A stretch of 64,000 bases of DNA from contig NZ_LT607750.1 of the NCBI RefSeq assembly GCF_900090235.1, positions 6,219,501-6,283,500 on the forward strand, written 5' to 3'. The position numbers and the translations under genes are program-made. Below are positions 40,404-48,810 of the stretch, piece after piece (within the stretch, counting starts at the first letter, position 1; each line of letters opens with the position of its first letter). The notes beneath the pieces were generated by a model, which had not been told where the DNA came from, did not search any database, and saw only the letters and a list, made by a program, of their open reading frames with translations. The DNA is from Micromonospora echinaurantiaca (GTDB lineage Bacteria > Actinomycetota > Actinomycetes > Mycobacteriales > Micromonosporaceae).

Positions 40404-40994
40404 TCAGAGGTACTGGCCGGTGCTGTGCCCGTCGTTGCCCTGCGGCTGACCCATCCCCGGCATGCCGGGAACCATTCCGCCGGGGCCGCTGGGCAGCGCC
40501 TGCCGGCCGGAGCGCATCTGCTCCAGCTGGACCCGGGCCGCCATCTGCTGGGCGACCAGGGCCGCCTGGATGCCGTGGAACAGGCCCTCCAGCCAGCCGA
40601 CCAGCTGGGCGTGCGCGATGCGCAGCTCACCCTCGCTCGGCGTCTGCTCCTCGGTGAAGGGCAGCGAGATCCGCTCCAGCTCCTCGCGCAGCTCCGGGGC
40701 GAGGCCCTCCTTGAGCTCGACGATGGAGCGCTCGTGGATCTCCCGCATCCGGTTGCGGCTGGCGTCGTCCAGCGGAGCCGCCTTGACCTCCTCCAGCAGC
40801 TGCTTGATCATGCTGCCGATCCGCATCACCTTGGCCGGCTGCTCGACCAGCCGGGTCGGGTCCTCGCCCTGTCCCTCCTCGGTCTGCACGGTGCCGACCG
40901 GCCGGCCGTCCGGGCCGACCACCACCACGGTGCCGGCGTGGCCGGCGTCGCCGGGACCCGGTTCCTCGTTCTGTCCAGAGCGCGCTTCGGTCAT
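40404..40994 (-). CDS. bpa: Bacterial proteasome activator Bpa
   Basis: ATP-independent ring activator of the 20S proteasome (homolog of mycobacterial Bpa/PafE). The 196-aa protein keeps the helical core (LVEQPAKVMRIGSMIKQLLEEVKAAPL; ELRIAHAQLVGWLEGLFHGIQ) and a disordered Gly/Pro/Met tail that ends in GQYL, the motif docking into the alpha-ring pockets. ATG 40994 or ATG 41003 are both possible. It implies that the organism has a 20S proteasome. Compare the YbjN-type protein at 46668, whose tail is similar. Confidence 0.93.
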   Translation of the reverse strand: MTEARSGQNEEPGPGDAGHAGTVVVVGPDGRPVGTVQTEEGQGEDPTRLVEQPAKVMRIGSMIKQLLEEVKAAPLDDASRNRMREIHERSIVELKEGLAPELREELERISLPFTEEQTPSEGELRIAHAQLVGWLEGLFHGIQAALVAQQMAARVQLEQMRSGRQALPSGPGGMVPGMPGMGQPQGNDGHSTGQYL

Positions 40995-41087
40995 GGGATC
41001 CATCTTTACCCAGCCGACCCCGCCGGTGCTCGCCGGGACCGGGTCGCCGGCCGGGAACCACCCGGGCGGGCGCGCTACCGTCTCGCC

Positions 41088-46667: not shown

Positions 46668-47777
46668 TCAGAGGTACATGCCGGTGCGGTGCTCGCCCTC
46701 GTCGCGCTTGACCGGCTTGTCGCCCTCACCGAAGAAGCGCTTGCCGCCGAACTCGCCGTGCAGCCGGTCGTCCAACTCGTCGGCGAGGCCGGTCATCACC
46801 TGCACGGCGAGCATCAGGTGGGTCGGCTGGAAGTTGCGGCCGAACACCGGGATGGACGCCCAGACGGTGTCGTCGGCGCAGTACAGCCGGCCGATCGGCA
46901 TCCGGTTGGTCAGTTCGGAGAGCTTGACGTAGAGCCGCTCGGTCGGCTCGACCTCGGTGAGCACCGGAGAGAAGACGTCGACCAGGGGCGGGTTGTCGCG
47001 CACCCGGACGAAGACCATCGCAGAGCCGGCCCGGATGTTGATGTCGCCGTCCGAGTCGACCTGGAGCCGGTCGGAATCCGACTTCAGCATGGTCGACACC
47101 ACCGTGCGGACCCGCTCGGCCAGGGCCAGCACGTCGCTCTCGCCGGACTGGCTCGCGGCGGCCGCGGCCGCCAGCGCCTCGTCCAGGTCGGCCTCGACGT
47201 CCCGGTCCGGGCCGAACTCGCTGCGCGCGGTGCCGAGCGGCTCGACCGGCAGCGGCTCGCCCTCCGCGTCGTGCACCAGGTAGACCAGGAAGGCGGGGTG
47301 CGGGGCGCCGTAAACGTCGCGCAGGGTACGGGAGAGCAGCGCGGACAGCCGCGCGGCGTCCGCGGTCGAGGAGTCCAGCCCGAAGTACTCGCCGGAGCCC
47401 TCCACCACGCCCGGCGGCGACCAGCCCAGCGCGATCATGTCCGCTACCGCGCTGCGGTCCAGGCGGTAGCCCTGCGGCAGGCTGGCGTTGCCGACCGCCC
47501 GGGCGGCGAGCGCCCCCTCCGCGCCGGCGTCCACGCTGACCGAGTAGATGGCGTCGCCGGTGCCGGAGGCGGTCGGGTCGAGGGTCACCTCCAGGTGCGC
47601 CCCGGCCGGCAGCGCGGCCAGCCGGTCAGCCAACGCCCGGGCGAACTCCTGCCACGCCTGGGTCACCTTCGCCCGCAGGTCGGCCGTGCTCGGCTCGTCG
47701 AGCAGGATCGACTCGTGGTGCTCCGGCATCCCGCCGGGCGGGCCACCGGTCGGCGCCGAGGGGTGGTCAGCCGTCAT
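46668..47777 (-). CDS. YbjN/T3SS-chaperone-like protein with C-terminal MYL
   Basis: A 369-aa soluble protein. The C-terminal half (about residues 210-350) has the YbjN/CesT chaperone-like fold pattern (DGDINIRAGSAMVFVRVRDNPPLVDVFSPVL, YCADDTVWASI). The N-terminal half has a related alpha/beta module. The last residues are HRTGMYL, close to HSTGQYL of Bpa, and MYL fits the HbYX proteasome-docking rule (hydrophobic-Tyr-any). This is seen directly; binding to a proteasome is inference. ATG 47777. Confidence 0.75.
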   Translation of the reverse strand: MTADHPSAPTGGPPGGMPEHHESILLDEPSTADLRAKVTQAWQEFARALADRLAALPAGAHLEVTLDPTASGTGDAIYSVSVDAGAEGALAARAVGNASLPQGYRLDRSAVADMIALGWSPPGVVEGSGEYFGLDSSTADAARLSALLSRTLRDVYGAPHPAFLVYLVHDAEGEPLPVEPLGTARSEFGPDRDVEADLDEALAAAAAASQSGESDVLALAERVRTVVSTMLKSDSDRLQVDSDGDINIRAGSAMVFVRVRDNPPLVDVFSPVLTEVEPTERLYVKLSELTNRMPIGRLYCADDTVWASIPVFGRNFQPTHLMLAVQVMTGLADELDDRLHGEFGGKRFFGEGDKPVKRDEGEHRTGMYL

Positions 47778-47869: not shown

Positions 47870-48136
47870 TCAGGCCGGGGTGTCGTCCGGGCGGCCGGCG
47901 CCGAGTTCGACCGGCCAGGTGCCGGCCAGCGCGCCGAGCCGGGCCGCCGCGTCGGCCGGGTCCGCGCCGCGTCCCACGGCCAGCCCGAGCAGGTACGCGG
48001 TGACCGGCGCGCCCGGTCGCAGCACCTGGTGGGCCACCTCCTTGGCCAGGTCGAGCACGGCCGGCACCGGCACCTGGGCCGGGTCCAAACCGAGTTCGGC
48101 ACACGCCGCCGTGACCCAGTCGTCCATCACCGTCAT
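47870..48136 (-). CDS. DUF6457 domain protein
   Basis: An 88-aa helical protein recognised as DUF6457, a family encoded next to molybdenum-cofactor genes in actinobacteria. Typical parts are MDDWVTAACAELG, LDLAKEVAHQVLRPGAPVTAYLLGLAVGRGADP and LGALAGTW. ATG 48136 overlaps the mobA stop by 4 bp (ATGA) and has GGAGGA upstream, so it is coupled to mobA. Confidence 0.82.
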   Translation of the reverse strand: MTVMDDWVTAACAELGLDPAQVPVPAVLDLAKEVAHQVLRPGAPVTAYLLGLAVGRGADPADAAARLGALAGTWPVELGAGRPDDTPA

Positions 48137-48810
48137 CGCACCCACTCCTCCGCCCGGCGTACGTCCGAGTCAGTGTCGCAGTCGAACCACGGTGGCGGGC
48201 CGGCACCGGACCACGGCACCTCGCGGACGGTCAGCCCGGCCAGCAGGGCGCGGATCGGGGCGCCGGCCAGCCCCCGCCCGGCGGCCAGCCGGTCGACGGC
48301 GGCCCGCAGCGGGGGCACCCGCCACACCCCGCAGAGGGTCTGCCGCCGCCCGTCGGCGTCCACGAAGCAGGCCCCGTCCGGTTCGGCACCGGGTCGACCG
48401 CCGGTGTCCGCCCCCGGCGGCTCGGCAGCCGGCCGCTGATCGAGTGGGGTCGGGTGACGCCCGTCCGGCCCGGCGTTGAGGTGGCGGAGCAGGTGGCCGA
48501 TCGCCTCGCCGGTGAGCAGCGGCAGGTCGCCGGCGAGCAGCGCGACGACCGGGGTGTCCGGATCGAGCAGGGCCAGCCCGGCGGCCGTGGCGGCCACCGG
48601 CCCGCCGCCGGGCGGCTGCTCCCGGGTCACCAGGACCCCCGCGGGCACCGGCCCGGCCGGCCCCACCAGGACTCGGGGGTGGGCGTCGGCGACGGCGGCC
48701 AGCACCCGGTCCCGCATCGGGCGGCCGCCGACCGGGCGGACCGGTTTGTCCACCCCGCCCATCCGGCGCGCCGCGCCGCCCGCGAGCACCACCGCCGCGT
48801 ACGCCCTCAC
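48133..48810 (-). CDS. mobA: Molybdenum cofactor guanylyltransferase
   Basis: A 225-aa nucleotidyltransferase that attaches GMP to molybdopterin. The opening signature VVLAGGAARRMGGVDKP is the NTP-transferase loop, followed by AGDLPLL (the metal-binding Asp) and a Pro/Gly-rich insertion near 140-165. GTG 48810 is chosen by family alignment. It is divergent from fdhD with about 50 bp between and is coupled to DUF6457, forming a formate-dehydrogenase maturation locus. Confidence 0.85.
   Translation of the reverse strand: MRAYAAVVLAGGAARRMGGVDKPVRPVGGRPMRDRVLAAVADAHPRVLVGPAGPVPAGVLVTREQPPGGGPVAATAAGLALLDPDTPVVALLAGDLPLLTGEAIGHLLRHLNAGPDGRHPTPLDQRPAAEPPGADTGGRPGAEPDGACFVDADGRRQTLCGVWRVPPLRAAVDRLAAGRGLAGAPIRALLAGLTVREVPWSGAGPPPWFDCDTDSDVRRAEEWVR

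Follow-up and report, generated by a model that had tools for sequence, protein, structure and literature searches.

The TY gene and its surroundings

The window, meaning the whole 64,000-nucleotide stretch of Micromonospora echinaurantiaca DNA analysed here, carries a gene for a protein of two TY-chaperone domains, TY-Chap3 and TY-Chap1 (hereafter the TY protein), together with the gene for the proteasome activator Bpa (Table 1). The closest named relative of the TY protein comes from a Micromonospora and is 96% identical. Both domain matches lie above the curated Pfam cut-off, which is 27 bits for PF22551 and PF22552 alike, and a Pfam scan with E-values up to 1 returned TY-Chap1 and TY-Chap3 alone, with neither PF10759, the Bpa family, nor an ATPase domain. 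In the accessible parts of the source, TY-Chap3 is described as a circularly permuted TY-chaperone fold, peptide binding is predicted for TY-chaperone domains, and the setting given for TY-Chap is ADP-ribose conflict systems (PMC9503650). As regards neighbours handling ADP-ribose, the two upstream neighbours are the DUF6457 and MobA-like genes. A TY-Chap1 paralog in the same genome (L002, 1048-2091) ends GADE and is without the tail, its C-terminal half being repeat-like.

Table 1. Features of the TY gene and its neighbours in the window
Feature	Position	Strand	Basis
TY-Chap3 + TY-Chap1 protein, 369 aa, ends HRTGMYL	46668..47777	(-)	ORF, translation, Pfam, orthologs
TY-Chap3 domain, residues 40-164	47286..47660	(-)	Pfam PF22552, E 4.7e-27, 95.5 bits
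TY-Chap1 domain, residues 219-350	46728..47123	(-)	Pfam PF22551, E 4.8e-46, 156.1 bits
Variable linker from last helix to tail, residues 351-365	46683..46727	(-)	50 loci; pLDDT
C-terminal GMYL, putative docking tail	46671..46682	(-)	Translation and ortholog tails
Bpa, ends HSTGQYL, start approximate	40404..41003	(-)	Pfam PF10759, E 2.9e-76
DUF6457 protein, 91 aa, directly upstream of the TY gene	47870..48145	(-)	Pfam PF20058, E 1.9e-23
MobA-like nucleotidyltransferase, start approximate	48133..48768	(-)	L306 counterpart, PF12804, E 1.2e-25

Translation bears out the two C-termini given in the preliminary description, and the distance of six kilobases to Bpa stated there agrees with a gap of about 5.7 kb between the genes, Bpa being downstream on the same strand and its start approximate. 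Among the named loci, which are the best 80 of 199 contig stretches encoding a TY relative, Bpa lies near the TY gene on the same strand, at 3.7-6.9 kb, in 75; the Bpa match is absent in the other five, where the flanks span 1.2-6.6 kb. Because several genes stand between the two, some of them on the other strand, this proximity is not taken as evidence of function. Upstream of the TY gene, the inspected loci of Micromonosporaceae have DUF6457 and MobA-like genes among others. The scanned genes next to it in other families are a penicillin-binding protein, an ArsA-like ATPase and a phosphoesterase; a short-chain dehydrogenase and a GAF/histidine kinase; or a PALP enzyme, and those scanned at two further other-family loci have weak Pfam matches or none. 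No gene neighbourhood common to the families appears in the loci looked at, and since the scanned neighbours differ in other families, the context gives no function.

Fold of the TY protein

Thirty sequences, taken from the window and from named loci and sharing 76-96% identity with the window protein, were used for an AlphaFold2 monomer model, which reached moderate confidence, with a mean pLDDT of 68.7 and a pTM of 0.53. The model consists of two folded parts, at about residues 31-169 and 217-345, and a low-confidence linker at residues 190-215; taken by tens of residues, pLDDT is 64-95 in the TY-Chap3 domain and 62-83 in the TY-Chap1 domain. At residues 350-369 it is below 50, and the tail and the linker just before it are, judging by the model, probably free or disordered.

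The C-terminal half of this moderate-confidence model runs helix, three strands, helix, two strands, helix, an order of elements like that in DR1245 and type III secretion system (T3SS) chaperones (PMC3575483). Foldseek at E-values up to 0.001 gave eight matches, two of them to 2plg (YbjN-like, best 1.4e-6) and six to the ExsC-ExsE complex (best 7.1e-5), the weaker matches including many type III secretion chaperones, AmyR and YbjN, and a sequence profile search of the PDB returned 2plg alone (E 1.2e-7). The YbjN/T3SS-chaperone-like fold proposed earlier is thus upheld at the moderate confidence of the model, the C-terminal domain matching YbjN and type III secretion chaperones. Arp2/3 complexes, which appeared as full-length, low-score Foldseek matches (TM about 0.2), were set aside as chance.

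The tail in the genome and among close orthologs

A DNA pattern encoding G[Q/M/L/K]YL and then TAA or TGA occurs at three places in the 7.2 Mb genome, the ends of Mpa/ARC, Bpa and the TY gene, and its reversed control gives no match; the pattern is blind to TAG stops, to most of the remaining residues possible at -3 and to leucine at -3 encoded by codons other than CTG. The Mpa/ARC of this genome, its family confirmed, terminates in NTGQYL. Among 233 gene calls, made on part of the window and on 19 loci that were fetched, 20 end in YL, and they are 16 TY proteins and four Bpa proteins; the crude gene caller skipped the TY gene in 4 of the 19 loci.

Within the family Micromonosporaceae, the TY protein was matched in 170 of 200 genomes. 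All 50 family loci read, the window's own included, end in G[M/Q]YL (GMYL in 47, GQYL in three), with two more matching genomes found later by the tail pattern. The codons for G, Y and L vary synonymously among the 50 loci, and the linker from the FGG at the domain end to the tail, 20-26 residues long, is variable in both sequence and length. One family genome (G533) has an in-frame TAG inside its TY match.

All 80 named loci (the best 80 of 199) end in GMYL. Neighbouring genes served as the control: the four C-terminal residues of each were compared with those in the window across the same 80 loci, with 31 to 78 orthologs per gene. They agree in 0-20% of cases for seven of ten non-Bpa neighbour genes and in 73% and 96% for two others, which we take to be DDAH-like and substrate-binding-protein-like, respectively; the tenth gene has a single ortholog. 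For Bpa, the last four residues equal those of the window in all 75 orthologs. The tail is more than chance, and the conservation among homologs on which the preliminary description had made its proposal depend is found throughout the family loci and the best-80 named loci.

Residue -3 in the tails of Mpa/ARC and Bpa

Mpa/ARC ends GQYL in all 30 loci read, 35 genomes having been searched. A search of 55 genomes for Bpa (PF10759) located it in 45, and its 45 tails comprise GQYL (32), GPYL (five), GAYL (two), GMYL (one), GNYL, GHYL and STYL (one each) and two that end YI. These tails vary by lineage (GPYL, GMYL and GAYL loci: L216, L218, L222, L210, L215, L152, L165, L168); the genome with a GMYL Bpa is G367 (f8), whose TY tail is GLYL. 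The Q of GQYL has been described as freely mutable (PMC6017811) and as not essential (PMC12288473). Since there are lineages in which Bpa has GMYL, GAYL or GPYL at its end, M at -3 is compatible with docking; these Bpa tails describe a tolerant position -3. The TY tail has the penultimate tyrosine and the actinobacterial form GxYL, and the earlier reading of MYL as fitting the docking-tail rule holds. A search for conserved C-terminal motifs was also the route by which Bpa was discovered (PMC4254994).

Ten genomes (G009, G050, G072, G094, G105, G207, G314, G708, G767 and G773) matched PF00227, the model used for proteasome genes, and had no match to PF10759; Bpa may be diverged or unassembled in such genomes. 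A tailed TY-Chap1 protein occurs in eight of the ten, the exceptions being G314 and G773.

Tailed TY-Chap1 proteins in other families

PF22551 matched 45 of 396 phylum genomes, 39 of them above the cut-off, and a profile built from tail-bearing proteins matched 31 of 334 class genomes, 24 of which were new. C-termini were read for at least one match per genome, G815 excepted, some second, weaker matches being left out; for a few weak TY-Chap1 matches, the frame read may differ from the true gene. YL tails were found in 17 of the 45 phylum-sample genomes and 7 of the 24 new class genomes. Nine families in all have tailed TY-Chap1 proteins, Micromonosporaceae (f1: G000, G192, G327) and eight others, whose tails are GLYL in f8, GAYL and PGYL in f11, GGYL in f17, f88, f93 and f95, SGYL or TGYL in f18 (ten genomes) and SPYL in f103.

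Nine aligned tail bearers from other families are 18-34% identical to the TY protein of the window. An alignment of 15 tailed proteins has seven invariant columns, which include the domain-end FGG and the final YL; the intervening linker is not conserved. As in the window protein, TY-Chap3 and TY-Chap1 are combined in the protein of G607 (f95), which ends EIGGYL. The docking-tail part of the earlier interpretation draws strong support from ortholog invariance and from these divergent tailed relatives.

Co-occurrence of the tail with proteasome genes

In the phylum sample PF00227 matched 176 of the 396 genomes, and among the 24 new class genomes it matched 23. Controls that have no 20S proteasome, Escherichia coli among them, are matched by this model too, so one match on its own counts as weak evidence. 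In the two samples together, every tail-bearing genome (24 of 24) has PF00227 matches, 23 with at least two genes and one, the draft G600, with one. Conversely, the tail was found in none of 12 genomes with a TY-Chap1 match and without PF00227, where five matches (G074, G133, G300, G320, G377) are weak, lying below the cut-off, and none is a close ortholog; for seven of the eleven negatives in the phylum sample, the absence of PF00227 was read from the list of matching genomes. In 32 of the proteasome-positive genomes read, all TY-Chap1 matches are tail-less, and the TY protein is absent from most sampled proteasome-bearing genomes.

An uncorrected Fisher test of tail against PF00227 gives p 0.0055, or 0.0056 when G815, whose C-terminus is unread, is counted (33 tail-less proteasome-positive genomes), and 0.037 without six sub-cut-off TY-Chap1 matches. 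A family-level Fisher test (p 0.07) was set aside, the number of families being merely estimated. A quick tree was made of 62 domains, of which five come from PF00227-less genomes; the tail must have changed at least seven times on the best topology, and at least twice when the starred branches alone are counted. Corrected for relatedness, the association of tail and proteasome is without statistical power, because the starred branches supply only two independent pairs (sign test p 1). The restriction of the tail is consistent with a proteasome role but, given this lack of power, is no independent proof. The counts of 24 in 24 and 0 in 12 are in keeping with the earlier expectation that the tail would follow the presence of the proteasome, which finds no backing on the tree or in the 32 tail-less positives.

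The TY protein as a probable partner of the 20S proteasome

On the evidence of its sequence, the TY protein is probably a new partner of the bacterial proteasome. Docking to the 20S particle is very likely; a role in delivery, argued by analogy with Bpa and archaeal PbaB, stands at about even chances; and the combined statement, that of a chaperone-like partner which docks on the 20S of actinobacteria and delivers clients, is moderately favoured. We infer 20S binding, gate opening, client binding and degradation rather than inhibition. GMYL on its flexible linker would insert in the pockets between PrcA subunits, like the GQYL of Mpa/ARC and Bpa, and the TY-Chap domains would retain unfolded stretches or specific clients at the 20S gate. 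Clients held in this way would be degraded independently of ATP and Pup, or would have the gate opened for them.

Other explanations concern the tail itself or the act that follows docking. A short motif and nothing else could resemble a docking tail by accident, yet this is highly improbable: the tail is invariant in 80 of 80 named loci (best 80 of 199) and 50 of 50 family loci, it recurs in eight other families, and the last-four control on neighbouring genes disfavours such a coincidence. More generally, C-terminal motifs serve many binding domains, and a penultimate Y with a last L is not by itself unique to the proteasome. The tail might thus serve another partner, such as a PDZ-type domain or a membrane or export factor, its likeness to GQYL being convergent; this is unlikely in view of the G at -4, the exchange of GMYL and GQYL between orthologs, the GMYL of a true Bpa and the absence of the tail from the 12 sampled genomes without a PF00227 match.

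If the tail does address the 20S particle, the TY protein might, in the manner of PI31, inhibit or compete, blocking Mpa or Bpa and so protecting clients. Its similar tail would contend for the pockets that they use; degradation driven by Mpa is inhibited when Bpa is in excess, and Cpa, too, competes with Mpa (PMC4254994, PMC6017811). The sequence evidence does not separate inhibition from activation, but a peptide-binding type of fold suggests delivery, and blocking is judged rather improbable. Much the same low probability attaches to a chaperone of 20S assembly or maturation, similar to PAC1-PAC2 or Pba, with its tail on half-proteasomes. The pairing of a chaperone-like fold with a tail recalls PAC/Pba logic, and an actinobacterial factor of such a kind has been raised as a possibility (PMC4254994). 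The TY protein, however, looks optional, the query P0002 matching 19 of 396 phylum genomes as against 176 of 396 for PF00227, and Bpa, the one protein searched for there, is present in all six Micromonosporaceae tested that lack a TY match. A docking partner that delivers clients is preferred.

Other bearers of the tail

Tails of this type also end proteins of other kinds. A GroES-like protein ends TGLYL in eight genomes from six genera of the family, one being the window's genus (L336, L327, L331, L332, L358, L359, L361, L362); the presence of the tail throughout this set is by selection, because the loci were found by the tail pattern. The three proteins scanned match Pfam Cpn10 (E 2.5e-16 to 1.4e-14) and fall below the NCBIfam GroES cut-offs. 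No GroES-like gene was found in the 0.4 Mb of the own genome examined (5.0-5.4 Mb). Also within the family, AAA ATPases with Pfam DUF5925 end NTGMYL at L323 (G400) and L325 (G440), and a protein of similar sequence at L364 (G438) ends VGLYL. The pattern also found other possible bearers, none with a Pfam match: two proteins that end SVGMYL (L324, G400; L326, G491) and a small frame that ends TTGQYL (L330, G480).

A tentative view, for which the chances are about one in three, would make the 20S particle of some actinobacteria a hub with exchangeable chaperone-derived caps (TY-Chap, GroES-like, DUF5925 AAA), unrelated folding helpers each having gained GxYL so as to form client-specific 20S routes beside Mpa and Bpa. 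GroES rings are sevenfold, like PrcA, and a sevenfold GroES-like ring would match the seven PrcA pockets. On the same tentative view, a tailed TY-Chap1 protein may stand in for Bpa where Bpa was not found.

Comparison with known systems

The partners of the bacterial 20S named in the accessible parts of two reviews are Mpa/ARC, Bpa and Cpa (PMC8223512, 2021; PMC12288473, 2025). No tailed TY-Chap-type partner was found in the portions available of the open-access literature on HbYX/GQYL and on proteasome partners, nor was a link between YbjN and the proteasome found in the open-access literature. The ProEnd database of HbYX proteins counts 982 of them in Actinobacteria (PMC11475706); the TY protein may therefore stand unnoticed in such a list. 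The logic of the motif is known, and the TY family, as far as the literature search reaches, appears not to have been described as a bearer of it. If the proposed role is true, the bacterial proteasome would have a further 20S partner, of a new fold, and may take unfolded proteins from dedicated chaperones; with the TY protein, the way in which untagged clients get to the 20S becomes testable in laboratory strains of Micromonospora.

Like the TY protein, Bpa/PafE (the Rv3780 family, PF10759) has a GxYL tail after a variable stretch and no ATPase domain. Bpa is a dodecameric ring of an unrelated domain, and the known tail-using activators are rings (PMC8223512), whereas the TY protein has two TY-chaperone domains and is represented by a monomer model alone. 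Mpa/ARC carries a similar tail, GQYL, on an AAA hexamer that uses ATP and Pup, in contrast to the TY protein, which has no ATPase match. Cpa, another actinobacterial 20S interactor, is a Cdc48-like AAA ATPase without the tail motif (PMC6017811). A proteasome tail for TY-Chap goes unmentioned in the accessible parts of PMC9503650. With the TY-Chap1 and TY-Chap3 families, YbjN and type III secretion chaperones, the TY protein has its domains and fold in common. Archaeal PbaB belongs to a different protein family and is a homotetramer, unlike the TY protein with its monomer model. As in the role proposed here, PbaB is a non-ATPase chaperone that activates the 20S particle independently of ATP through its C-terminal segments (PMC3605417), and by analogy it offers the nearest working model for the TY protein.
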